A stretch of DNA of 20,785 nt from a virus: positions 1-20,785 of IMG/VR virus record IMGVR_UViG_3300046683_000248; one strand, given 5' to 3'. The notes under the pieces were generated by a model, which did not search any database, was not told the origin of the DNA, and saw only the letters and a list, made by a program, of their open reading frames with translations. A program made the position numbers and the translations under genes. Every line of letters starts with the position of its first letter. The first letter of the stretch is position 1. Shown here in pieces: positions 1 to 20,785 of the stretch.

Positions 1-185
1 GTCCTGTGTAGACGTGACCTAAAAAAATCGGCGACCATTTCCGAATTTAGTGATTTCGATTTGTGAATTCGGAATTTGGATTTCGATATCGGGTTATGGT
101 TATCGGTTGTCGGATATGGGTGGTGGATATCGGGTATCGATATCGGATATCGGATATGGTCGGGGGAATTGGACGGCGGTTCCAT
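1..185 (-). CDS. Possible junction-spanning small ORF (partial at window edge)
   Basis: An ATG at 185, 4 nt after the stop of the PAPS-reductase-like gene, opens a frame with no stop through position 1. If the molecule is circular and the ends abut exactly, the frame continues from 20785 to a TGA at 20673-20671, giving about 99 residues and ending 3 nt before the GTG of the terminase frame. It begins MEPPSNS, matching the leader peptides of the neighbouring genes. The product would be basic and rich in Arg, Ile, Tyr and Ser, largely because GATATC repeats are read in three frames. Codons such as ATA, AAA and TAT are unlike the GC-ending codons of neighbouring genes, which argues for non-coding DNA with a fortuitous frame. 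I recognise no family. Its position next to TerL makes a small-terminase-like DNA-binding protein conceivable, but nothing in the sequence shows it. Confidence 0.3.
   Translation of the reverse strand, partial: MEPPSNSPDHIRYPISIPDIHHPYPTTDNHNPISKSKFRIHKSKSLNSEMVADFFRSRLHR
85..158. repeat. Left GATATC palindrome cluster
   Basis: GATATC occurs at 85-90, 126-131, 139-144 and 146-151, with the near variant GATATG at 113-118 and 153-158. The sites sit in an unusually AT-rich stretch (about 20-160) of a GC-rich genome and mostly read CGGATATCGG or CGATATCGG. The right end of the window carries the same family, so in a closed molecule they form one intergenic cluster upstream of the terminase. Candidate roles are cos/pac recognition, late-promoter control or replication iterons. 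Confidence 0.75.
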
Positions 186-2055: not shown

Positions 2056-2418
2056 TCATGGCGGGCGGGGCGTCCACTGACCGGTCAACGGGTCGTGTCT
2101 GGCGGCGTCGTGACCGCGTCGTTTCCGTTCGGCGTCGACCTTGCGGCGTTGCTCGACGTCGGCCTTCGACGGGTTGTAGTCCAGGTAGTCGGGCATGAGC
2201 ATGCCGCCGTCCATCCGCACCCACAGCCGCGACGTGACGAGCTGTTCGACTTCGCGGGTGCGGCCGTAGCTGCCGTACACCTCCGGTGGGATCAGACCGT
2301 CGGTCAAGTACTGGGCGGACCAAGTGCCGCACCGAACCCACAGCCCGGCGGCGGCGTTTCCGGCCTGTTGCACCTTCGGATGGGAGTGGAAACTGTCCTC
2401 TAACCGGAACCACGGCAT
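2056..2418 (-). CDS. Phage replication-associated protein, N-terminal domain only (putative)
   Basis: A 120-residue protein opening MPWFRLEDSFHSHPKVQQAG, followed by AGLWVRCGTWSAQYLTDGLIP. This resembles the N-terminal module of actinophage proteins usually annotated as replication or DnaD-like winged-helix proteins, where W-F-x-D/E-D and LTDG are typical. It ends in a basic tail (EQRRKVDAERKRR) likely to contact DNA. Compared with longer relatives it stops early, so it may be a minimal version. ATG at 2418 follows the previous stop by 3 nt. The 11-bp tandem repeats directly after its stop are a candidate binding site. The family call rests on my recollection of the sequence pattern and is moderate. 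Confidence 0.6.
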   Translation of the reverse strand: MPWFRLEDSFHSHPKVQQAGNAAAGLWVRCGTWSAQYLTDGLIPPEVYGSYGRTREVEQLVTSRLWVRMDGGMLMPDYLDYNPSKADVEQRRKVDAERKRRGHDAARHDPLTGQWTPRPP

Positions 2419-2421
2419 CGC

Positions 2422-2571
2422 TCATGTGCCCTCGCTGGTGGCGGGTGGACCCTGGGGCGGGGCGGGGTCTAGGCCTTGCCGGCGGGTGTGGACTAGCGGC
2501 ATCGGATAGCCGAGCGGGGTACGACACACCTCACCCGGCAGGGCGCCACACACGGGGCAGGTGTCATCCAC
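2422..2571 (-). CDS. Small zinc-binding protein, CPVCGA...C...H type
   Basis: A 49-residue protein starting with GTG at 2571 and overlapping the preceding gene by 8 nt. CPVCGALPGEVCRTPLG at 5-21 with HTRRQ after it gives a Cys-Cys-Cys-His set, the pattern of a small zinc finger widespread in actinobacterial phages and hosts (CPVCGAxPGxxCRTPxGxxxxxxH). The C-terminal half is Pro-rich and probably disordered. The spacing to the replication-type gene (3 nt) implies co-translation. Nucleic-acid or protein binding is inferred from the fold only. Confidence 0.72.
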   Translation of the reverse strand: MDDTCPVCGALPGEVCRTPLGYPMPLVHTRRQGLDPAPPQGPPATSEGT

Positions 2572-2836
2572 CGTCGATCACTTCCTCGAGGTCCAAGATG
2601 CGGATGCGTTGATCCCGACACCGCGCCTCGTACCAACGGATCAACGCCTCATCGACCTTGACCCAGGCTTCGAGCTGGGAGCGGGTCGGCGGCTGATTGT
2701 GGACGGCGAGGCGGATCATCTCCGACATCAGGTGATGCCGGTCGTGGTGTGGGTCGTCGGGGCGGACCGGGACATCCCACCCACACTGGGCGCAGCCGTG
2801 CGCCGTCGGGGTCGGTGGACGGTCACCCCTCGGCAT
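2564..2836 (-). CDS. Hypothetical protein with CxxC motif
   Basis: A 90-residue protein. An N-terminal HGCAQCGWDVPV (13-24) supplies one CxxC pair, with His residues at about 30-35 as possible further ligands. The C-terminal 50 residues (LEAWVKVDEALIRWYEARCRDQRIRILDLEEVI) look like one or two amphipathic helices. ATG at 2836 has GAGGG upstream and overlaps the RecT-like gene end by 14 nt. No family is recognised. The operon position right after the annealing protein suggests a recombination or replication accessory. Confidence 0.65.
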   Translation of the reverse strand: MPRGDRPPTPTAHGCAQCGWDVPVRPDDPHHDRHHLMSEMIRLAVHNQPPTRSQLEAWVKVDEALIRWYEARCRDQRIRILDLEEVIDGG

Positions 2837-3632
2837 CGTCGCCCTCGAGCATCAGGTCCAACTTGTCCGCCAGGGCCTGCGCCTGGTCATCGGCGTCACG
2901 TTCGGCACGCTGCCGCAGATACGCATTGTGCGCATCGACCGCGTCGACGATGTCGGCCGCCAACAGGTCGACCGGCGAGTCGTCATCCACCACGTCGTCG
3001 TCGACGATCTCGCCCGTCGTGTGGTCGACCCGCGGGTCGTAGTCCACATCGATCGCCGAATACGGGCCGACCGCACCGACCTCCTCGGGCGTGTACGCGA
3101 TGCCGTGCAACACGTCGGAGAACAACAGCCGGGCCATCTCCGACGTGGCGCGGGCGGCGAGCATGGCGCGGGGGTAGGTGGTCCAGTTCCCTTTGCCCAA
3201 CAGCTTGGCCCGGCGGGCGTCGTCGAGTGTCCACACGACGACGCCGTCGGCACCCGTGTCGCGGCGGCGGGCATACAACTCGACCCGCTCCGATGACACC
3301 TGACGCCACGCCAACAGATGGCCGGCGGCTTGGATCAGACCGCGCATCAACTGCGCCGAACACGTCGGCTGGCCTTCGATCAGGAAGATCGATCTCATCG
3401 CCGCCATCGGCTCCAACCCCAACTCGGCGCCGTACACCATGACGGCGAACGCCGCATCAGGGCGACCCCTGAGCGGCTTCGGGACCATCTCAGTGTTCGT
3501 CGTCAACCGGGCCAGGTTGTACAACTCGTTGTACGCCTGAGCGCGGGGCGACTTCGACGTCATCTCATCCCGCACCGCCGGCGCGTTATTCCCGACATCG
3601 GGAGTATCGGCATGCTCGACATCGGTACTCAT
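2823..3632 (-). CDS. recT: RecT-family single-strand annealing protein
   Basis: A 269-residue protein with a RecT-like core at about 35-185: AAFAVMVYGAELGLEPMAAM, then LIEGQPTCSAQLMRGLI, then LGKGNWTTYPRAMLAARATS and ARLLFSDVLHGIAYTPEEVG, the usual order of this family. These proteins anneal complementary single strands during phage replication and recombination, with a nuclease partner that makes the 3' tails. The C-terminal third is acidic (a DDDVVDDD stretch near 210-217), like the regulatory tails of such proteins. ATG at 3632 has a strong GAGAGGAG. Two PD-(D/E)XK nuclease genes lie directly upstream in the same operon and are candidate partners. The family call is firm; partner choice is inference. 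Confidence 0.88.
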   Translation of the reverse strand: MSTDVEHADTPDVGNNAPAVRDEMTSKSPRAQAYNELYNLARLTTNTEMVPKPLRGRPDAAFAVMVYGAELGLEPMAAMRSIFLIEGQPTCSAQLMRGLIQAAGHLLAWRQVSSERVELYARRRDTGADGVVVWTLDDARRAKLLGKGNWTTYPRAMLAARATSEMARLLFSDVLHGIAYTPEEVGAVGPYSAIDVDYDPRVDHTTGEIVDDDVVDDDSPVDLLAADIVDAVDAHNAYLRQRAERDADDQAQALADKLDLMLEGDDAEG

Positions 3633-3642
3633 CGCGCTCCTC

Positions 3643-4149
3643 TCACGATCCGAACCCTTCGCGCAACGACATCACGCACGGGTCGTGCTTCGGCAGTAGC
3701 GAGAACGACACTCCCGACCCGTTCCCGCGGTACGTGCCCTGGTGGCGGTCCGGTGACGTCCACACGTCAGCCGCCCGAGCGCATCGCAGATCGGGGAACA
3801 CCACCCACACATCGACGTCGAACAACGCCCACCGCTGGTACGCCAGCACGGCGGCGTTGTCGAAGTCGTAGTTCGGGGTGTCGGTGCGTCCGGCCTTGGC
3901 GTCGATCAACCGGATGCAGTCGACATACGGATCGGGGTGGCGGCGGGTAGCGATCAGATCCGGCAAGTAACGCATCAGGCTGTCGGTCGTCTTGACGTCG
4001 CCGAACATCTCCTCTGTCAGCAACGCGTGAGCGAACGGACCGACATGCCAGCCGCAGGCGCGCACCGCGGCGGCGACCCGCTCCTCGTTCGGGATCCCGA
4101 GCGCGAACCGGGTGGTGTACACCTCGGGCGGACGGCGCGTGGACGTCAT
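3643..4149 (-). CDS. PD-(D/E)XK-type nuclease (putative)
   Basis: A 168-residue protein with the core nuclease pattern YLPDLIA (P63-D64) followed about 17 residues later by IRLIDAKAG (D83-x-K85), with an upstream Glu near 22-23 in the first helix. Helix and strand segments after it (AAVLAYQRWALFDVDVWVVFPD) fit the small Holliday-junction-resolvase-like fold. The ATG at 4149 overlaps the preceding stop (ATGA). It sits 10 nt upstream of the RecT-like gene, so the simplest hypothesis is a DNA-processing partner for annealing. It does not look like a standard RecE or lambda exonuclease, being too short. A restriction-like or anti-host nuclease is the alternative. Confidence 0.65.
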   Translation of the reverse strand: MTSTRRPPEVYTTRFALGIPNEERVAAAVRACGWHVGPFAHALLTEEMFGDVKTTDSLMRYLPDLIATRRHPDPYVDCIRLIDAKAGRTDTPNYDFDNAAVLAYQRWALFDVDVWVVFPDLRCARAADVWTSPDRHQGTYRGNGSGVSFSLLPKHDPCVMSLREGFGS

Positions 4150-4331
4150 TGGTCGCCCCATCCGTTGTGGTACGGCTGCCGGCGGAGTTCGGCCATCAGT
4201 TGGCGGTGCCGGTCGCCGTGGACGCTGCGGTCGAGGCGTCGGCGTTCCGTCCGGCGCACGGCGTCCACACACAGCGATGCCACGAGGATCCCGGTGAGGA
4301 TGAGGACGGCGAGCCAGTCATGGGCGGTCAT
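4146..4331 (-). CDS. Small single-span membrane protein
   Basis: A 61-residue protein with one N-terminal hydrophobic helix (about 5-24, WLAVLILTGILVASLCVDAV) followed by a strongly basic, His-containing cytoplasmic tail (RRTERRRLDRSVHGDRHR). ATG at 4331 overlaps the VRR-NUC stop as ATGA, and its stop overlaps the next nuclease start as ATGA, so it is translationally locked between two nuclease genes. No signal-peptidase motif is obvious, suggesting a membrane anchor. Function unknown; anchoring DNA processing at the membrane is speculation. Confidence 0.7.
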   Translation of the reverse strand: MTAHDWLAVLILTGILVASLCVDAVRRTERRRLDRSVHGDRHRQLMAELRRQPYHNGWGDQ

Positions 4332-4780
4332 GTCCCTGCCCCCACGGAACCGGCAGGAGGCGCGGGGGCAGGGACGACCTTGGTGGCGGCGGCGGCGACG
4401 GGCGAGGCAACCGCCGCCGCCTGGCATCCAGTGTGACGAGGCGAACGGGCGGCGATCGCCATGTCGTCGAGGAATTCGGACAGCCCGGCGCGGCCTTTGA
4501 CGACGCGGAACCCGGCACCGGCCCGAATCAGTGCTTCGCCCCACGCCTCCTGATCGACCGACAGGCGGCCGGTCTTCGTCTTCAGCTCGACCCACCACAC
4601 CAGTCCGGCGGCCGGGTGGATGAGGACGAGGTCGGGGAACCCGGCGCCGTCACCCTGCACCGCGGTGCGCCAGCCGTGACGGGTCAGGGCGGGCCGGAAG
4701 TGGGCGGTGCGCCAGCCGAGGAACCGGGACGCCTCGAGGATGGCCGACGTCATGGCGGCTTCGGTGGGTTCGGCGTTCAC
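4328..4780 (-). CDS. VRR-NUC domain endonuclease
   Basis: A 150-residue protein with a VRR-NUC domain at about 12-105: GAGFPDLVLIHP (D50), WWVELKTKTGRLS (E65, K67), then VDQEAWGEAL (Q77) and AGAGFRVV, the complete PD-(D/E)XK set of this family. VRR-NUC proteins are structure-specific or flap-type nucleases, standing alone in phage replication modules. After 105 there is a low-complexity Ala/Pro-rich tail to 150, longer than the minimal domain. GTG at 4780 overlaps the lipoprotein stop as GTGA; ATG at Met10 is an alternative start. Its closeness to the RecT-like gene suggests it resolves or trims recombination intermediates. Confidence 0.88.
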   Translation of the reverse strand: MNAEPTEAAMTSAILEASRFLGWRTAHFRPALTRHGWRTAVQGDGAGFPDLVLIHPAAGLVWWVELKTKTGRLSVDQEAWGEALIRAGAGFRVVKGRAGLSEFLDDMAIAARSPRHTGCQAAAVASPVAAAATKVVPAPAPPAGSVGAGT

Positions 4781-5226
4781 TGCGTCACCGGCAGACCAGG
4801 CGCGGCGGGTGTGGTCGTGGGTGGCGGCGGGCCCGGCTGTGGAGGCGGGCCCGCCGCCGTGGTCGTCGATCCCGACGGCGTCGATGGCCCAGACGTCGTG
4901 GAGGTGGTCGACGAACTCGAGGACGTCGTGGTGGGGGCGCCCTGCGTGTTGGGGACGCAGTCCGGGCAGGCGGGCCGCGTCGTCGTCGTGGCGGGGACGG
5001 TGGTGGTGGTGCCACCACCGATTTGGGTGTTCGGGGTGCAATCCGGGCAGCCGGTCGTCGTCGGCGCCACCGTCGTCGTGGCGGCAACGGTCGTTGTGGT
5101 CGTCGGGTACGTCGCCTTGGTGGTGGTGGTCGACGGGCACGGGCCACCGCAGCCGTGGGCGGGGTCCGCGGGCGCGCCGCAGGCAGCCAGGACGGCCAGG
5201 GCGACGACGGCGATCAGGGCGCGCAT
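4777..5226 (-). CDS. Thr-rich lipoprotein with duplicated CPDCxPNTQ motif
   Basis: A 149-residue exported protein. The first 15 residues (MRALIAVVALAVLAA) are a signal peptide and C16 fits a lipobox (LAAC), so the mature protein should be lipid-anchored outside the cytoplasmic membrane. The rest is low-complexity Thr/Pro/Ser, interrupted by CPDCTPNTQ at 60-68 and CPDCVPNTQ at 87-95, an internal duplication that may form disulfides; an earlier Cys pair is at 26 and 30. It lies second in the early operon, right after the HTH gene, an odd place for a virion protein. Phage lipoproteins of this kind can block superinfection at the envelope; that role is an inference. No homologous family recognised. 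Confidence 0.8.
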   Translation of the reverse strand: MRALIAVVALAVLAACGAPADPAHGCGGPCPSTTTTKATYPTTTTTVAATTTVAPTTTGCPDCTPNTQIGGGTTTTVPATTTTRPACPDCVPNTQGAPTTTSSSSSTTSTTSGPSTPSGSTTTAAGPPPQPGPPPPTTTPAAPGLPVTQ

Positions 5227-5423
5227 CAGATGTCGGCGCCGATGCTGGCCCGGCGGGCGTCGCGGCGGGCGTCGACGAAGGCGATCCAGTCGCGTTCGTC
5301 GATGCGCCAGGCGACGCCGAGCTTGACGCCGACCAGTTCGCCGGCGCGCAGCCAGTCATAGATCGTGTCAACGGAGAGCTGCTGTTCGTCGGCAAGCTCC
5401 GCGACGGTGTACAGGCGGGTCAT
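5226..5423 (-). CDS. Helix-turn-helix DNA-binding protein (excisionase-like)
   Basis: A 65-residue MerR-like/excisionase-type winged helix: YTVAELADEQQLSVDTIYDWLRAGEL (5-30) is the helix-turn-helix, followed by VKLGVAWRIDERDW (33-46), the wing and closing helix. This is the standard small 'helix_turn_helix_17' layout. It is the first gene of the leftward early operon, facing the plus-strand repressor gene across a 221-bp control region, so it is likely either the excisionase or an early-operon regulator acting there and near attP. ATG at 5423 has GGGAG about 8 nt upstream. Its stop overlaps the lipoprotein start by 1 nt (TGATG). Confidence 0.85.
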   Translation of the reverse strand: MTRLYTVAELADEQQLSVDTIYDWLRAGELVGVKLGVAWRIDERDWIAFVDARRDARRASIGADI

Positions 5424-5520
5424 TCGGTGTCTCCCAGGCTTCGGGCGGTGCCGGATGGGAGCATCCTGGACCCTTCGCCCTGTGGGGTGCCAGTGGAGGG
5501 CTTGTGTTTTTCGGACCGAC

Positions 5521-5529
5521 TTGTCCACA
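5521..5529 (+). promoter_or_regulatory. DnaA box TTGTCCACA
   Basis: TTGTCCACA equals the DnaA box consensus known for Mycobacterium and Streptomyces. It is the only perfect copy I noticed, in a locally AT-richer part of the immunity control region and 4 bp from the first TGGGA repeat. A single box may mean host DnaA control of early transcription rather than an origin. Confidence 0.5.
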
Positions 5530-5532
5530 GTT

Positions 5533-5566
5533 TGGGACTCGTTGGGAATGACTGGGAGTAATGGGG
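5533..5566 (+). repeat. Helically phased TGGGA repeats
   Basis: TGGGA starts at 5533, 5543 and 5553, with TGGGG at 5562, giving 10-bp spacing and the same helix face. The last unit is part of TGGGGTTAAC, which recurs at 7523-7532 beside attP. TGGGG and TGGGA recur with 10-bp spacing at 7564 and 7574. A shared binding site for the HTH protein or repressor is likely. Confidence 0.55.
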
Positions 5567-5644
5567 TTAACTGTGTGTAGGGCGGGCTACAAGTCCCCCG
5601 GCCAACACCGCCGCACCCGGTGCAACGAAGGACAGGAGGCGGGC

Positions 5645-6076
5645 ATGGCGACGGCGCCACGCGGTGACTTAGCGTCATCGACGGACATGGATGACCTCGC
5701 CGCCGCGCTCGAACGAGCTGCGACGGGCATGACACAGAGCGCGTTGGTGCGGACCACCGGCCTGTCGGCGCGCACCCTGCGCCAGTTGATGGACCCGGAC
5801 ACCACCCGGGTGTTCGGGCGACCCACCCTCAACAAGTTGGACAAGGCGTTCGGGTGGGCCGACGGCACCGCCTGGCGGGCCTACCGCCGCGGCCAGGCCC
5901 CACCGGACCGGGCCGCCGAGGTGGCCGCCGAAGCCCTCAGTCTGATCGAGGAACGCTTTGCAGCACTGGCGGCGGAGCCCCCGTGGGTTGCCGAATGGCT
6001 CGACGCAGGGCGCTCATTGTCGCCCCGAGATCGAGCCCTGGCCTTGCAGTTCGTTCGTCGCCTCGGGGAGGGCTGA
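5645..6076 (+). CDS. HTH immunity-repressor candidate
   Basis: A 143-residue plus-strand protein. A Cro/CI-like helix-turn-helix lies at about 28-72 (MTQSALVRTTGLSARTLRQLMD, then RPTLNKLDKAFGW), followed by a helical region with SLIEERFAALAAE and a short C-terminal domain. It is one of only two supported plus-strand genes, transcribed divergently from the early operon, which is the classical position of a lysogeny repressor. ATG at 5645 has AGGAGG 5 nt upstream; an upstream in-frame ATG at 5561 lacks a comparable site and would run into the DnaA-box region. No peptidase motif for SOS autocleavage is apparent. The 3' end overlaps a minus-strand gene by 140 bp. Confidence 0.8.
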   Translation: MATAPRGDLASSTDMDDLAAALERAATGMTQSALVRTTGLSARTLRQLMDPDTTRVFGRPTLNKLDKAFGWADGTAWRAYRRGQAPPDRAAEVAAEALSLIEERFAALAAEPPWVAEWLDAGRSLSPRDRALALQFVRRLGEG

Positions 6077-6251
6077 ACATCAGGTCGTGGAGCCCGTCGG
6101 CGAGGTGGTCGGCGTAGTCGGGGTCGGCGGCCCACGCCGTCAGGTAGTAGTCGCGCACCACCTGGGCGCAGAACCACACGACATCGCCGGCCCCTTCGGG
6201 GTACGGGATGACGACCGGTTCGGGCGGGTCGTCGGCGCGGTCCACGGTCAT
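5937..6251 (-). CDS. Hypothetical protein overlapping the repressor gene tail-to-tail
   Basis: A 104-residue protein, MTVDRADDPPEPVVIPYPEG at the start, then DVVWFCAQVVRDYYLTAWAADPDYADHLADGL, which reads like a genuine helical domain. ATG at 6251 has GAGAGGGG about 5 nt upstream. Nothing else explains 6077-6251, so I accept it, but residues beyond about 60 are antisense to the repressor C terminus (140-bp convergent overlap) and look like lower-complexity shadow sequence. It lies 87 bp downstream of the integrase, behind a hairpin, on the same strand. No family is recognised. The overlap could allow transcriptional interference between integrase-side transcription and the repressor. Confidence 0.6.
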   Translation of the reverse strand: MTVDRADDPPEPVVIPYPEGAGDVVWFCAQVVRDYYLTAWAADPDYADHLADGLHDLMFSPPRGDERTARPGLDLGATMSALRRAIRQPTGAPPPVLQSVPRSD

Positions 6252-6298
6252 GTTGCCCCTCTCGGTGGTGCACCCCTCGCCGACCGCCCCCGGCCCCC

Positions 6299-6320
6299 GG
6301 CCGTTTACCCCGGAACGGCC
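6299..6320. terminator. Hairpin downstream of integrase
   Basis: GGCCGTT at 6299-6305 pairs perfectly with AACGGCC at 6314-6320 across an 8-nt loop. It begins 18 nt after the integrase stop on the minus strand. There is no T-run, so it is either a GC-type actinobacterial terminator or an RNA stability element. Confidence 0.45.
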
Positions 6321-6338
6321 CCAACTTAGCCGCGGCGG

Positions 6339-7331
6339 TCAGGCCCGACGACCTCGGCGCGACCCCAACTCGTCGGGGGCGGCGTCGACGACGTCGAAGT
6401 AGCGGTCGATGCCGGCTTCGGCTTCCTCGTCGGCCAGGTAGCGGCGCGGCATCCGGTGATCGGACCAGCCGCCGATCACCTCCAACCCCAACACGTCACC
6501 GCGGCTGGCCCGCAGGTACTGGGCGACGAACCCGCGCCGCAACTGGTGCGGGGACACGTCGACCCCGGTGGCCTTGGCGGCCCGTTTCATGACGTCGCGG
6601 ATCGCTTGGGTGGTGAGGCGGCCGTCGCGGTCGCTGGTGTGGCCGATGCGACCCATGAACAACGGGCCGGGCAGCCGACCCCGTCGCCGCAGGTAGCGCT
6701 CGAGGAGGTGTTGGGTTTCGGGGTGGACCGGCACCATGCGCGGCTCGGCGGTCTTGGTGTTGTCGGCGGCCAGGCGGATCACCTTGCGGCCGGTGGTGCC
6801 CCAGTCCATGACGTCGGCCAGGTCGATGCCGCACAGCTCGCCGACCCGCAACCCGGACCGCCACATCAGCGACACCATCGCCGCGTTGCGGCGACCGGCG
6901 GTGTCGGTCCCGAAGTGGTCCATCAGTTTCTCGATCTCGTCGGGCTTGGCGGCCCGGGTCGCCGGCTTGGACGACACGTAGGGGGCTTTGATGCCGAGCA
7001 TCGGGTCGGTCCGCAAGATGCCGCCACCGCGGCGGTCGTCGCGGTGGCGGGGCCGCGCCGGGCGCGACGCCCAGGCGTAGAACCCGGTGACGAGCTGCCA
7101 GTCCTTGCGGCGGGTCGACGGGGCGATGCCGGCTTCGCGGCGGGCGTCGAGGAAGGCGCGTAGGTCGCGGTGGCCGGCGCCGCGCACGGTGGTGTGGGTG
7201 TCGGCGCACCAGCGGGCCCACCGGTTGAGGGCCGAGATGGCGACGGCGCGGCCGTGGGGTGACCAGTCCTGGTCGTCGAGGTAGTCGGCGACGTCGAGGT
7301 CGAGGGGGCCTTGGGCTGGTGTGCGGGGCAT
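6339..7331 (-). CDS. int: Tyrosine recombinase integrase
   Basis: A 330-residue phage integrase. The N-terminal core-binding (SAM-like) domain spans about 10-120 and the catalytic domain about 125-315. Catalytic residues are R162 in SGLRVGEL, a likely K193 in NTKTAEPR, H262 and R265 in PHQLRRGF, W289 in GGWSDHR, and nucleophile Y298 in RRYLADEE. The ATG at 7331 has GGAGA 7 nt upstream; a TTG-started extension to 7370 lacks a site. The tRNA-Gly-derived attP core lies about 120 bp upstream, with a long hairpin between. The protein lacks a recognisable N-terminal arm-binding extension of the lambda type, being short before the core-binding domain. It should catalyse integration at tRNA-Gly(GCC), with the small HTH protein as possible excisionase. 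Confidence 0.93.
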   Translation of the reverse strand: MPRTPAQGPLDLDVADYLDDQDWSPHGRAVAISALNRWARWCADTHTTVRGAGHRDLRAFLDARREAGIAPSTRRKDWQLVTGFYAWASRPARPRHRDDRRGGGILRTDPMLGIKAPYVSSKPATRAAKPDEIEKLMDHFGTDTAGRRNAAMVSLMWRSGLRVGELCGIDLADVMDWGTTGRKVIRLAADNTKTAEPRMVPVHPETQHLLERYLRRRGRLPGPLFMGRIGHTSDRDGRLTTQAIRDVMKRAAKATGVDVSPHQLRRGFVAQYLRASRGDVLGLEVIGGWSDHRMPRRYLADEEAEAGIDRYFDVVDAAPDELGSRRGRRA

Positions 7332-15543: not shown

Positions 15544-15786
15544 TCAGCGCGCCTCGAGCGCCTCGACGAGCGTCACCCGGTTCTTACCGGCCCGCTCCGC
15601 GGCCAACACGGCGCCGAGCTCGTCGGGGTGTTCATCGACGTACGCCTCGACGTCGCCGACGGTGTGATCGGCCGGGTCGAACCCCGCCGACTGCGGGTCC
15701 GGGTCATCCGAGATGATGCCGACCGGTTCGCCGTCGCGGACGACCTGCTGGTTCGGTTGCGACCAGTACACCGGGGATTCGCTCAT
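15544..15786 (-). CDS. Small acidic head-associated protein (putative)
   Basis: An 80-residue acidic protein, starting MSESPVYWSQPNQQVVRDGE. The C-terminal part TVGDVEAYVDEHPDELGAVL, followed by AAERAGKNRVTLVEAL, is a helix-extended-loop-helix (HeH/SAP-like) module seen in small head or head-fibre proteins after capsid genes in actinophages. ATG at 15786 overlaps the capsid stop (ATGA), so it is co-translated with the capsid gene. Decoration or head completion is inferred from position. Confidence 0.65.
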   Translation of the reverse strand: MSESPVYWSQPNQQVVRDGEPVGIISDDPDPQSAGFDPADHTVGDVEAYVDEHPDELGAVLAAERAGKNRVTLVEALEAR

Positions 15787-16985
15787 GGCGTCTTGGTGAC
15801 CTTGACGATCCCGGTCGGCTCGATCACGACGGCGTCGAAGTCACCGGCGTAGCCGACCTGGACACCCCACACCGACGGCTCGACGACTTGGAGGTTGCCG
15901 TAGCTGTATTCGAACGTCTTCGCCGCCGCGGTCGAGAACACGAGGATGGTGCCGGCGGCGAGCCCGGCCGACATGACGACCGACAGGCCGGCGATCGACC
16001 CGTTGACGCCCTGGTCGAGCGGGAGTTGGAACCCGGACGAGTAGGCGTTCGTCGGGTTGACCGGCGGGAAGATCGGACCGATCAGACCGAGCATGTCTGG
16101 GGCCACCGCGACGACCGTGGTGCCTTGGCCCTTCGTGTTCGCGAACACGGTCCCCGCCGCCGTCCAGATCGCCGCCGCGACGGCTGCGGGGGTGGCGGGG
16201 CCGGTCGGGATCACCGGGCCGGCCGTCGCCGCGGTCGTGAGGGTGGTGCCGGTTTCGAGTTCGGTGGCAATCGCGTATTGCTCGGCGAGATCGTTGATGA
16301 TCATGTCCAAGATGGCCGGGGACGAACGGTTGATGTCCTGCTTCGACACGTTGACGTAACCGCCGAACGTGTCCGCGCCCAGCGGGGTCTTCGTCACCGT
16401 CATCTTGCGGGACGCCAACTCGGTCTTCTCACCGGCCTGCTTCGCCACCGAGGTGTGCTGCGTGACCCGGGCATACGACCAGGCGCCGGACCCGAGGCTG
16501 GTCACGCCGATCGTGTTGACGAGCGGACGGGCAACCTGGATGTAGTTGACGATCGGCGCCACGATCGTCTCCGGCAACAGACCGGGGTTGTCGGCGGTGG
16601 TCTGGTGGGCGGCGACCCGGTTGAACGTCTCCTGCCGGCGGATGGCGTCGGTGTCGCCGAGCTGGGCCAGGTACAGGTCGACGATGTAGGCGCCGGCCGT
16701 GCGGTATTCGACGTTCGACTGCGGGGAGCGGGCCTGCTGGTACATGCCGACCAGCTCGGCGGTCCGCGCCCTGGACTCGACGGCGATGCGGGCGCCGTCA
16801 CGCAACGGTTCCATCTGGCGGACGATGTCCTGCATCCGGTCACGGGCCCGGGTGAACAGATCCATCTCCTCGGACGACAGGTCACGGCCCGCCGATTCGG
16901 CCGCCTCGACGAGCCCATTCGCGAACGTTTGACGCTCCTCCAGTTCGGCCTGGAACCGCGACAGCATGGCGTCAGTCGCAGACAT
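15783..16985 (-). CDS. Major capsid protein, HK97 fold
   Basis: A 400-residue capsid protein. The N-terminal 1-80 is a charged coiled coil (LSRFQAELEERQTFANG, RARDRMQDIVRQMEPLRDG), the scaffold-like delta domain expected to be removed by the prohead protease. From about 135 on, the HK97-type body follows, with LLPETIVAPIVNYIQVARPLV, the E-loop region, FGGYVNVSKQDINRSSPAIL, and a strand-rich end (VEPSVWGVQVGYAGDFDAVV). ATG at 16985 has AAGGGGG 4 nt upstream. It is separated from the protease by the longest gap of the late operon (103 bp), which may give it its own signal for high expression. Confidence 0.92.
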   Translation of the reverse strand: MSATDAMLSRFQAELEERQTFANGLVEAAESAGRDLSSEEMDLFTRARDRMQDIVRQMEPLRDGARIAVESRARTAELVGMYQQARSPQSNVEYRTAGAYIVDLYLAQLGDTDAIRRQETFNRVAAHQTTADNPGLLPETIVAPIVNYIQVARPLVNTIGVTSLGSGAWSYARVTQHTSVAKQAGEKTELASRKMTVTKTPLGADTFGGYVNVSKQDINRSSPAILDMIINDLAEQYAIATELETGTTLTTAATAGPVIPTGPATPAAVAAAIWTAAGTVFANTKGQGTTVVAVAPDMLGLIGPIFPPVNPTNAYSSGFQLPLDQGVNGSIAGLSVVMSAGLAAGTILVFSTAAAKTFEYSYGNLQVVEPSVWGVQVGYAGDFDAVVIEPTGIVKVTKTP

Positions 16986-17088: not shown

Positions 17089-17670
17089 CTACGTGGCAGA
17101 GGATGTTAGATCGAACCCGGTGCGGGCGGCAAGCATCTCGAGGCGGATGCGGTCCAGGTTCGGGGTGGGGATCGCCGTCCGCTCGCCCTCCTCCCCGGAC
17201 TGCGAGCGGACGGCGAGAACCTTCGCGCCTTTATAGGCGGGGTCACCGGTGAGCGCGATATGGACCAGTTTCGCCCGGGTCACCCTGACCGTGGAACGAT
17301 CCGCTGACCAGTCCTCGCCTTCGGACTGGAACCCGATCGACGGTGCCAACAGCCCGTCGGCGGCCAACTCCAACACGTCGTCACCGGACGCGGTACGGGA
17401 GATCCGCAGCTCGGCCCGCAGGCCGCGGGGGTCGTTCGGATGGAACGCCGACACCCGGCCCAGCGGCGATTCGAGGTCGTGGGCGCGGTTGACGGTGACG
17501 TCGCCGTGGACGCCGGTGAATGCCTGCGGATCAACGGATTCGGTGACCCACCGGCCGCGGCGCAACACGTCGGTCGGCTCGTTGTACGGCACCGCGATCA
17601 AGTCGATGATGCGTTGGGCGTGGCGCACCTCGAGGGTGTCCGCGGTGCGGTACTGGATGCCGTCGTTCAC
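17089..17670 (-). CDS. Prohead protease (HK97 family, peptidase U35/S78)
   Basis: A 193-residue protease. IIDLIAVPYNEPTDV (21-35) opens the domain; catalytic H64 is in NRAHDLESPLGRV, and S111 is in LLAPSIGFQ, the two diagnostic motifs of the family. It processes the capsid delta domain inside the prohead. The GTG at 17670 overlaps the portal stop by 4 nt (GTGA) and fixes the start; the same frame stays open to 18132 but that part is the portal gene's shadow. The C-terminal tail from about 155 is charged and may be autocleaved. Confidence 0.9.
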   Translation of the reverse strand: MNDGIQYRTADTLEVRHAQRIIDLIAVPYNEPTDVLRRGRWVTESVDPQAFTGVHGDVTVNRAHDLESPLGRVSAFHPNDPRGLRAELRISRTASGDDVLELAADGLLAPSIGFQSEGEDWSADRSTVRVTRAKLVHIALTGDPAYKGAKVLAVRSQSGEEGERTAIPTPNLDRIRLEMLAARTGFDLTSSAT

Positions 17671-18893
17671 AGGGTGACTCCTTGCGACAGTGGGCCGGTG
17701 ACCTCGTACCGTTCGATTTCGGCGACCTGTTGCGGGGTGAGGACACCGATGCCGGTGAGGATCTGCCAGGTCTGCGCCCGTTCGTAGGGGCCGGGTTGGA
17801 CGTAGCTGTCGCGGTTCACTTCGACCGTGGTGCCGCGGGGCAGGAGCCGGCTGGACAGGTCGGCCATCAGGTGGGCGGCCATCGGGCGGAGCCCGGCCCG
17901 CCAGTGATAGTCGAACAGGGCCGTCGTGTTGGAGTACGTCATCGAGTCGCCACCGCTGGGCAGGCCCATCAGGAACGGTGGCAGACCGAGGAGGACGGCG
18001 ATGCGGGCTTCGTTCCAGGCGGACAGTTCGACCATCGCCATGTCGGCCGGGTTGAACTGCAACGTCTTGAAATCGATCCCGCCGGACAGCACCGCCGGCA
18101 GGCCGAGGGTCGACATGCGGGCTTCGACCCATTGGGATTGCAGGTCGTAGGCCTGTTTCGCGGTGAGGTCGTCGGGGTGGGTCAGCACGGCGTTCGGGAT
18201 CCCGCCCGACGCGGCGAACTGGGAGGCGTAGCGGGCCAGGGCGACGGCCGCGACGAGACGGGGGCCGGCAACCTCGAGCGGGCCGTGACCGTGGGCGTCA
18301 CCGACCCTCGACTGGTAGCGGATGTGGATCATGTCGGCGGTGACGTCGGCACCGCCGATCTCATAGGAGCGGAACCCGCCGGCCAGGTCGGCTTCGACGT
18401 CCCACGGCGGCACCACATGGAACCGGGCCGGATAGCCCGTCGCGTAGTACGCGGTGACCAGCACGAACGCCTCGCCGGCGGACTGGTAGTCCCACAGGAG
18501 CTGTTTCGCGAATTCGTTCCACGACCCGTACTGGTCCGGGTCCGGGTTCGTGAGCCAGTCCGCCGACAACGACGGCGCGGCGGAGACGAGGTAGGGCGGC
18601 ATCGACGCGAAGATGCTCGAGTTCTTGTCGAGGCACGCCCAGGCGGTATCGGTCAGTGATTGGACCTGGCCGAACCAGTTCGGGGTGTTCCACTCGGCGG
18701 GCCAACCGGACCATGCCGTCGGGCGGGGCGGGCCGGCACCGAACGGGCGTCCGACACCTTCGTCGATGAAGTCGACGGCGCCCGGATCGCCGGGGCGGGC
18801 GGTTGGTGGGCCGACAGTGGCCGGCGGGTGAGTCGCCGGGTCGTTGTCGTTCGGGATCAACTGGCGATGCTCGACAACTGCGCGCTTACTCAC
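17667..18893 (-). CDS. Portal protein (HK97/SPP1-type)
   Basis: A 408-residue portal. The first 60 residues are Pro/Asp-rich and flexible. The clip and stem core follows: WNEFAKQLLWDYQSAGEAFV, PPWDVEADLAGG, then ARYASQFAASGGIPNAVLTHP, the helical VELSAWNEARIAVLLGLPPFLMG with SMTYSNTTALFDYHW, typical of phage portals. The ring of 12 subunits is the DNA entry gate and docks terminase. The GTG at 18893 lies inside the terminase end (8-nt overlap), so terminase and portal are coupled. Length is in the normal range. Confidence 0.9.
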   Translation of the reverse strand: MSKRAVVEHRQLIPNDNDPATHPPATVGPPTARPGDPGAVDFIDEGVGRPFGAGPPRPTAWSGWPAEWNTPNWFGQVQSLTDTAWACLDKNSSIFASMPPYLVSAAPSLSADWLTNPDPDQYGSWNEFAKQLLWDYQSAGEAFVLVTAYYATGYPARFHVVPPWDVEADLAGGFRSYEIGGADVTADMIHIRYQSRVGDAHGHGPLEVAGPRLVAAVALARYASQFAASGGIPNAVLTHPDDLTAKQAYDLQSQWVEARMSTLGLPAVLSGGIDFKTLQFNPADMAMVELSAWNEARIAVLLGLPPFLMGLPSGGDSMTYSNTTALFDYHWRAGLRPMAAHLMADLSSRLLPRGTTVEVNRDSYVQPGPYERAQTWQILTGIGVLTPQQVAEIERYEVTGPLSQGVTL

Positions 18894-20652
18894 CGGTGGA
18901 CGACGCTACACCGCTATGCACCGCCGGGACAGGATGCGGCTCCTGCGCCGCCAACAGGGCCCAACATACACCCCGCAACAAATCCGATCGGGGACCGCGA
19001 ACCAACGTCAGGCCGGTGTCGATCTTGGTGACCCGGGACGCGTCGACCTGGGCGTCCAACCCGACGGTGCTGTCGTGGACGAGGCGGCCGCCGGTCGCCA
19101 ACGACCGCAACAGGGGCAGGCCGAGACGGGTGCCGGAACGGGGCGGCTTGTCGAACCGGGTCCCCGCCGGGAACACCTTCAAATCGGGGGCCATGCCGTC
19201 GCCATAGATCACCGTCGAACGCGGGTGGAGGCGGGCGATCATCGCCGCCTGATCCCACGCCGCGTCCCAATCGGTGCCCTCCGACCCGCCGACCTCGAAC
19301 CGGTCACCGTGAACCTGGACCACCGCGGTAGCGGCGCCCTGGCCGTGGTTGTCGACGACGGCGACGAACACGGGTCCACCATCGAAAGGGACGGCCGCCC
19401 CGAGCGACGCCCACAGGCCGTCGATCAGCAGCCGTTCACCGCGGCCCTCGACGCCGCCCTTCAACGGCCACACGTTGAACCACTGGGCGTACACACCGGC
19501 CGGGAGCTCATGCATCCCCGGCCCGTCAGTCACATACGGCAGGGCGGTGCGGACGGCGGCCCGGATGTCACGCTCACGATGCTTCGACCAATGCGGCGAC
19601 GACTGGAACCATGCGACCTCGTCGGCCAGATCGGCATTCCTCGGCGCCGACCACTCCAACAGCAGCGTGCCCTCACCGGAGTCGAGGGCGTCGATCGCTT
19701 CGGCCCGGTAGGTCGGGATCAGATCGGTGCATTCGGTGTGCGCCGTCGACGACAACAGGAGTTGCCCGGAACGTTTCTCGACCGTCGTCGGCGACAGGTT
19801 CTGCTGCACATGCTTCAGCTTCACGCCGAACGCCTCATCGGCGTAGGCGAGCGACGTCGAATAGCCAACCGTCGACACCTGCGACCGGACCAGCCACTCG
19901 CCGTGAACGTCCGGTTTGCGGATCCCATGCTCACCGGCCGAGTACCGCCGTTTCCACCCGTACCCCTCGGCCCGCGGGGTGGCCCGGTCCATCAACATCT
20001 GCGCGGCCTGCAACGTCTTCGCGACATGCAACACGAGCTGTGGTTCGCCGAACAGGTCGGACCGCTCCGACCGCCAATCACACAGCAGCATGCCCAGCTC
20101 GGACTTGCCGCACTGGCGGGCCACCGTCAACAACACCACTGCCCACACCAGGTCATCGGCGGCGTCATGCTCGAGGAGGCGATAGGCGGCCAACTGCTGC
20201 CACCAGTACAGGGTGACGCCATGCTCAACCTGGCACCACAAGTCGAACTCGGGTCCGTACGTGTCGACAGCGTCCCGATGCGGGACCGACATGAGCCGCG
20301 GCCACCAGCCATCCTCCGGGACCTCCCGCAAGTCGTCCAGCCACGGCGCCGCATCCCACACTGGCGAGGCTTCGTCGAAGCCGACCGGTTCCTCCGATAC
20401 GACCAACAGCCGACCGGCCGCCATCTTGCCGTTCGCCAGATCGATCGCCTGACGGCGTTGACACGGCCCGCACGCCGCCACCAGCCGGCAACACCCCGAC
20501 CCGTTCCGATGCCGATGCCGCGACAACGGAGGCTGATGATCCGCCTCCGTCGCCCGCCGGCCGCACCCATGAGCGCATGACGGGTTGCCGGCCAGAATGG
20601 CACGACGCGCCTTCTGATATCCCGGACCGTACGGCGAATTCCTGCGCGGCAT
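18886..20652 (-). CDS. terL: Large terminase with N-terminal HNH domain (fusion)
   Basis: A 588-residue protein (593 from GTG 20667). Numbering here is for the 593-residue form. The HNH domain is at about 15-75: C31 and C35, ADHQPPLS with the general-base H44, then CGPCQ with C66 and C69. The positions usually Asn and His/Asn appear as R61 and Q70. The terminase ATPase has Walker A-like ARQCGKSE (183-190), Walker B AYADEA (274-279) and coupling motif LLSSTA (304-309). The RNase-H-like nuclease shows candidate metal ligands D439 (AVVDN), D490 (VIYGDG) and D538 or D542. It packages DNA through the portal and cuts concatemers. ATG 20652 has GGGG 9 nt upstream; the GTG at 20667 is the alternative. 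No separate small terminase gene is found. Confidence 0.9.
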   Translation of the reverse strand: MPRRNSPYGPGYQKARRAILAGNPSCAHGCGRRATEADHQPPLSRHRHRNGSGCCRLVAACGPCQRRQAIDLANGKMAAGRLLVVSEEPVGFDEASPVWDAAPWLDDLREVPEDGWWPRLMSVPHRDAVDTYGPEFDLWCQVEHGVTLYWWQQLAAYRLLEHDAADDLVWAVVLLTVARQCGKSELGMLLCDWRSERSDLFGEPQLVLHVAKTLQAAQMLMDRATPRAEGYGWKRRYSAGEHGIRKPDVHGEWLVRSQVSTVGYSTSLAYADEAFGVKLKHVQQNLSPTTVEKRSGQLLLSSTAHTECTDLIPTYRAEAIDALDSGEGTLLLEWSAPRNADLADEVAWFQSSPHWSKHRERDIRAAVRTALPYVTDGPGMHELPAGVYAQWFNVWPLKGGVEGRGERLLIDGLWASLGAAVPFDGGPVFVAVVDNHGQGAATAVVQVHGDRFEVGGSEGTDWDAAWDQAAMIARLHPRSTVIYGDGMAPDLKVFPAGTRFDKPPRSGTRLGLPLLRSLATGGRLVHDSTVGLDAQVDASRVTKIDTGLTLVRGPRSDLLRGVCWALLAAQEPHPVPAVHSGVASSTGE

Positions 20653-20752
20653 TACCGATATCCCCACATATCAATATCCCCCATATCCCGATATCCGTGA
20701 CTGATATCCCCGATACGGATATCGAATAGCGTGATATCGGGATATCGATATC
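20616..20752. repeat. Right GATATC palindrome cluster
   Basis: GATATC at 20616, 20657, 20690, 20703, 20718, 20733, 20741 and 20747 (first base of each), plus CATATC at 20667 and 20682 and AATATC at 20673. Spacings of 13, 15 and 15 bp recur. The first two lie within or at the start of the terminase gene. The remaining sequence up to 20785 shows no gene on its own strand other than the junction ORF. With the left cluster this forms one region upstream of terL. Confidence 0.75.
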
Positions 20753-20785
20753 GGGCGGAATTCAGAACACAATAGTCGGGCGGAC

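Follow-up and report, generated by a model that had tools for sequence, protein, structure and literature searches.

An HNH endonuclease domain fused to the large terminase in a family of phages with no recognisable small terminase

The stretch of viral DNA analysed here (the window: 20,785 nucleotides, positions 1 to 20,785 of IMG/VR record IMGVR_UViG_3300046683_000248) carries near one end a gene for an HNH domain joined to a large terminase (TerL), followed on the same strand by genes for a portal protein, a prohead protease and a major capsid protein (Table 1). The frame opens at ATG 20652, with an alternative GTG at 20667, and runs without internal stops to a stop codon that ends at 18886. 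Elsewhere, positions 2056-7331 encode a RecT-like annealing protein, a replication initiation protein, a VRR-NUC nuclease, an excisionase and an integrase, and the final gene ahead of cos (190-1068) is phosphoadenosine phosphosulfate reductase-like (phrog_424, E 4e-48). The virus is a small temperate phage.

Table 1. Features of the window and gene halves in relatives whose contig ends split the fused gene.
Feature	Position	Strand	Basis
HNH-TerL fusion gene, 588 aa	18886..20652	minus	single open frame, PHROG TerL and HNH matches, AlphaFold2 model, 69-sequence alignment
HNH (beta-beta-alpha-metal) domain, residues ~6-73 (ATG numbering)	20434..20637	minus	PHROG, alignment, AlphaFold2, structure match
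HNH domain residues D38-H39, H46, H48; Zn-type Cys 26/30/61/64 (ATG numbering)	20434..20637	minus	
Low-confidence linker, residues ~74-96	20365..20433	minus	pLDDT < 50 at residues 77-84
TerL ATPase domain	19468..20364	minus	residues invariant across 69 sequences; Foldseek to HK97 TerL
TerL ATPase motifs: Q152, R179-K183 (Walker A), D272-E273 (Walker B), S302-T303			
RNase H-like TerL nuclease domain, triad apparently degraded	18928..19416	minus	69-sequence alignment
Portal protein	17667..18893	minus	phrog_12, E 3e-41
Prohead protease (Peptidase_S78)	17089..17670	minus	Pfam E 1.8e-12
Major capsid protein	15783..16985	minus	phrog_2263, E 2e-59
65-aa HTH_17 excisionase-like protein	5226..5423	minus	phrog_66 3e-8; HTH_17 1e-9
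Genome end upstream of fused gene, putative cos, gene side: GTCCGCCC... (minus strand)	20760..20785		contig end, family end clustering
Other genome end, putative cos, far side, T7 tract on minus strand, ...TTTTTTTAGGTCACGTCTACACAGGAC	1..27		
GATATC iterons, gene side of cos, 8 copies	20616..20752		
GATATC iterons, far side of cos, 4 copies	85..151		
End-split gene halves: L290/L291 (G055), L279/L280 (G041), L283/L284 (G043), L285/L286 (G044)			

The body of the protein matched a PHROG large terminase family (phrog_9, E 2.4e-11), and residues 6-90 matched two PHROG HNH endonuclease families (E 0.0012 and 0.0037). A preliminary description of this DNA had proposed a profile check of both parts. 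Pfam and NCBIfam searches with the same protein returned zero matches, and the family profile likewise found nothing among PDB sequences by hmmsearch. An AlphaFold2 model built with 69 relatives (mean pLDDT 90.8) begins with a helix (residues 10-20), two strands (36-40 and 56-60) and a second helix (62-73), which is the beta-beta-alpha fold foreseen for this part, and continues through an unstructured linker into a two-domain terminase. The closest PDB match of the whole model was HK97 TerL (6z6d, Foldseek E 6e-16), and with the phrog_9 match and the invariant Q152, K183 and D272-E273 both the motifs and the fold of a TerL ATPase are present. The HNH domain alone had as its top PDB match the HNH endonuclease of GVE2 (probability 0.89, with a weak E of 0.23). 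A gene caller based on codon usage placed the start after the HNH part; the reading that this part is untranslated was rejected on its conservation and on a dN/dS of 0.098, compared with 0.15-0.19 across TerL, measured against the 83%-identical relative L002, which carries the same fusion. The HNH part is under strong purifying selection. The gene is a fusion of an HNH domain and TerL in one chain, as the preliminary description had proposed, and the single frame, the PHROG matches and the model agree on this.

This domain order, for which a survey of TerL proteins had been suggested, turned out to be common to a large family: 209 relatives in viral contigs came from one scan, which combined a motif scan with a search by alignment, and 80 of them were kept. 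In that set an N-terminal HNH domain was found in essentially every locus whose 5' end is not cut by a contig edge. A scan with TerL motifs, blind to the HNH part, yielded 107 usable loci, among them 36 with the HNH subtype of the window, 36 with a canonical HNH (D..H...H..CN) and one with NL..C..CH..K; the remaining 34 were unclassified, mostly because a contig edge cuts them, and L183, L212 and L240 were ambiguous. Both subtypes are interspersed on the TerL tree, so the HNH domain was exchanged without ceasing to be fused, and the N-terminal nuclease of this TerL family has been replaced repeatedly. Phage HNH genes are often mobile, and an exchanged domain of this kind could be a homing-type or selfish in-frame insertion in TerL that plays no part in packaging. 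We regard this as extremely unlikely, given that no TerL of the family with a complete N-terminus clearly lacks the domain, that purifying selection on it is strong, and that the same HNH adjoins TerS and TerL in the split relatives described below.

Several further features of the family were recorded. Other HNH subtypes are fused at the same TerL site in L177, L179, L184, L188, L208, L238, L229 and others, and 6 of 69 members gave sub-threshold matches to Pfam Endonuclease_7 (best E 0.03), a resemblance only to Endonuclease VII. In two records (L162/L163 in G018, L164 in G029) the HNH-TerL gene points the opposite way to the portal and capsid genes. The pre-cos genes of one clade include a small conserved C2H2 zinc-finger-like ORF (~74 aa, 'CHxCGxxFxTxAAETRHVAAT'), which lies upstream of the fused gene in L052, L053, L054 and L057. 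The plasmid collection yielded only distant, non-fused terminases, and a first scan of genome contigs found no fused relative; a second gave one match (L138, JAUHYJ010000002.1), the only one in a cellular genome, on an Acidimicrobiia MAG contig that offers a weak hint of the family's host. The phages with fused terminases, which are uncultivated, are probably actinobacterial. Structure-library searches with the whole model retrieved over its full length two UniProt entries from uncultured Caudovirales phage, A0A6J5RK67 (602 aa) and A0A6J5QUV0 (586 aa), automatically named 'HNHc domain containing protein'; judged from the model match and the name, they are probably the same fusion, already deposited. 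In the open-licence literature we found no published description of an HNH-TerL fusion.

As the preliminary description had also noted, no small terminase (TerS) is recognisable near the gene: PHROG, Pfam and phrog_6299, a TerS family, were all negative in the window. The last of these was found in none of 30 fused-gene records and in both of two split relatives (E 4e-18 and 2e-20), one of whose TerS also matched Pfam Phage_terminase above the cut-off. These relatives (G002, locus L006; G006, locus L013), found by their HNH motif, encode HNH, TerS and TerL in this order as separate genes; G002 is 59% identical to the window in the portal, 47% in the protease, 53% in the capsid protein and 67% in HNH, with 71% identity for the HNH domain, and the HNH domain of G006 is 57% identical to that of the window. 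PF03592, PF05119 and PF10668 gave no credible match in the fused records, with one sub-threshold 21-residue match in G026; the first two are weak tests, since even the TerS of the split relatives escapes them. Because the fused family has split HNH-TerS-TerL relatives, the absence is meaningful, and across these records the absence of a recognisable TerS goes together with the fusion. A TerS might still be present but too divergent to recognise, the fusion then making a tighter HNH-TerS-TerL machine: TerS families differ widely in sequence, several genes of the window gave no family match, and the window encodes two small HTH proteins. We consider this unlikely, for upstream of the fused gene of the window there is only the genome end, and no common candidate emerged across 22-30 fused records with four TerS models. 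Both HTH proteins were rejected as TerS, the 65-aa one because it scores as an excisionase (phrog_66, 3e-8, versus 1e-3 for the TerS family phrog_57) and the other (5687-6076) because its family matches are repressor-like. It is plausible, as had been suggested, that the fused HNH domain replaces TerS in its recognition role.

The HNH site itself departs from the canonical motif. The preliminary description had placed R61 and Q70 where Asn and His/Asn are normal, and the alignment agrees that they sit at the central Asn and the last Asn/His sites; that numbering starts at the GTG, and counted from the ATG the same residues are R56 and Q65. The central Asn is absent from all 69 sequences (mostly R or V), and the helix metal ligand, missing from the window, is N in 28 sequences, the other 41 having A, S, Q, R, G or M there. 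The rest of the site is preserved: D38, H39, H46, H48, C54, C55 and C61 are invariant in all 69, so that the acidic residue before the first catalytic His is always present, and the zinc-type cysteine pairs accompany the beta-beta-alpha fold, Cys 26/30 in 68/69 and the second pair with Cys at position 64 in 64/69 and His in the other five. EADHQPP was a selection criterion of the first scan but not of the TerL-motif patterns, and the loci found by the latter also keep the Asp-His pair. In the GVE2 enzyme the first His is critical (94% activity loss), and N109A and H118A cost 60% and 83% of activity (PMC5304195).

The RNase H-like domain of TerL fares differently. Its acidic residue at motif I is kept. 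At motif II nearly all fused members have Gly in place of the Asp that is found in HK97 (D388) and in the split TerLs, and at motif III 29/69 have His in place of Asp, the window keeping D557. On this alignment the RNase H triad appears degraded in the fused family, and the HNH would be the better conserved of the two nucleases. In the window clade D485 lies one position off motif II, and its RNase H site may not be dead. An association between N65 and H557 (27/28 versus 2/41), considered as compensation, follows a clade and was discounted as independent evidence. The preliminary description had raised the possibility that the HNH domain binds rather than cuts. A degenerate HNH that only binds cos in place of TerS, with TerL RNase H doing all the cutting, would fit the replaced central Asn, the helix ligand lost in 41/69 including the window, the absence of TerS and the acidic D485 and D557 of the window clade; it sits poorly with an Asp-His pair and two further His that are invariant over deep divergence, with a canonical HNH in the same slot at 36/107 loci and with an RNase H motif II missing in nearly all, and we think it improbable. 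The invariant Asp-His pair, the canonical HNH of relatives and the apparently degraded RNase H make the domain more likely a cutter than a binder only.

Evidence on packaging comes from the contig ends. Of the 80 contigs, 51 have an end no more than 400 nt upstream of the fused gene, mostly at 30-190 nt, when 5.5 would be expected (P about 4e-43 under independence, the contigs being only partly independent); among those of at least 10 kb the figures are 22 of 38 and 0.96 expected. Many carry a common signature, in which a T-tract precedes the far end by some 25-45 nt and TTTCCCCCC or TCTCTC follows the near end at about 10-15 nt. Terminal direct repeats of 12 nt (G016) and 11 nt (G021) were found, and two contig ends carry sequencing-adapter tails. 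Where the gene is inverted relative to the portal (G018, G029) the end remains next to the gene, on the flank that faces away from the portal, and the split relative G002 ends just upstream of its HNH. This pile-up of ends suggests a fixed-end (cos) packager with cos beside the fused gene. Joined bluntly, the window ends (...TTTTTTTAGGTCACGTCTACACAGGAC followed by GTCCGCCCGAC...) resemble continuous sequence in G007 (...TTTTTTTAATGTCACACACCCGCAGGACGTCCTCCCGCC...), which makes the window very likely a complete genome of ~20.8 kb whose cos lies some 150 bp upstream of the gene. The window contains 13 copies of GATATC where 2.0 would be expected; 12 of these lie no more than about 170 nt from one or the other end, and other members have different iterated motifs at the same place (CAAACA in L060, CATGCA in L068); we infer that these iterons are candidate recognition sites. 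Since the junction has GATATC iterons on both sides in the window clade, the clustering might instead be a repeat-driven assembly artefact and not cos. This is very unlikely, as most members end at the same place without such repeats, the T-tract signature is common to far ends, terminal repeats of 11, 12 and 14 nt occur in three records, and adapter tails were read at two ends.

Taken together, these observations are best explained, with a probability that we put at about 0.58, by a single-chain cos terminase whose HNH domain cuts at cos and whose separate TerS has been lost. The C-terminal part would be an ATP-driven motor that docks on the portal, and the N-terminal HNH, on its flexible linker, would be carried to cos by the motor itself and make one or both of the strand cuts from which the fixed ends arise. 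The separate TerS, which in HK97-like phages recruits and positions TerL and HNH at cos, would have been lost because motor and cutter form one covalent chain, and cos recognition would probably be shared by the HNH domain and the short iterated motifs beside cos (GATATC here). The proposal takes it that the HNH domain cuts, that it is enough without a TerS and that the iterons are read. Several points weigh against it: (i) the window HNH lacks the two residues whose counterparts were altered in GVE2 N109A and H118A; (ii) with D485 beside motif II, its RNase H site may be alive; (iii) the non-fused TerL of Gordonia phage Vendetta also appears to be without RNase H motifs; (iv) a divergent TerS could hide among the proteins of unknown function; and (v) cos is placed by contig ends, not by mapped virion ends, in records that are not fully independent.

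In a sister clade the genome ends appear to fall within the gene, whereas in the window cos lies outside it. About 20 contigs of the TerL-motif scan end inside an open frame between HNH and TerL, and 17 of them belong to one clade of 21 (support 0.94). In G041, G043 and G044 the near end encodes the linker and TerL, open at the edge (in G041 with no start codon before a conserved WPRLM), and a canonical HNH runs off the opposite end in an open frame; at the far end of G042 no HNH was seen. G055 has an exact 14-nt repeat, TCTGGACAAATCTC, at both ends, in the same frame (SGQI) on each side, and merging the ends there gives one HNH-linker-TerL frame of 723 aa. Supposing that the ends of G041 and G044 lack 10 nt, their two parts fall into one frame again (1, 4 or 7 would also do, this being arithmetic only), and 10 nt would fit a trimmed 3' overhang of that length. 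In these relatives the gene seems to be packaged as two halves, which circularisation rejoins. A wider form of our explanation, in which the TerS-less one-chain terminase both recognises and cuts cos through HNH, RNase H has decayed, and the sister clade, with cos inside the gene, packages this gene split by its own product and encodes the whole enzyme only on circularised or concatemeric DNA, is a tentative one, to which we give less than even odds. Such relatives suggest a link between packaging and the circular or concatemeric form of the genome.

HNH proteins have reportedly been described in packaging machines, by Kala et al. in PNAS in 2014. The best comparison is HK97 (TerS gp1, TerL gp2, HNH gp74), where gp74 stimulates cos cleavage and may cut one strand (PMC9410871, PMC11331095) and TerS is needed for cos termination (PMC11331095). 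At issue there is which nuclease, TerL RNase H or HNH, cuts which cos strand, and TerS is regarded as essential for cos cutting; a one-chain HNH-TerL with no recognisable TerS and an apparently degraded RNase H site, set beside its close split relatives on the same head module, allows a direct comparison on both questions, and with the fusion it can be tested directly to which part the recognition and to which the cutting of the genome ends belongs. The split relatives share a similar HNH domain adjoining the terminase genes, but keep HNH, TerS and TerL separate, with a different TerL that has the motif II Asp. The GVE2 endonuclease (PDB 5h0m) has the same beta-beta-alpha fold, CxxC...CxxC zinc site and catalytic His, although it is stand-alone, with a canonical H-N-H, and only weakly matched in structure. 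In Mycobacterium phage Charm the HNH protein gp4 (41% identity over 61 aa) adjoins the TerS gp5 near the left genome end; there the genes are separate and the motif is a canonical DH...N...H. The likeness to HK97 extends to cos packaging, an HNH partner, the TerL fold and the order portal-protease-capsid. Although HK97 uses three separate proteins where the window has HNH and TerL in one chain and no TerS was found, fixed genome ends lie beside the terminase gene, and it is HK97-like, HNH-assisted cos packaging that the system resembles.
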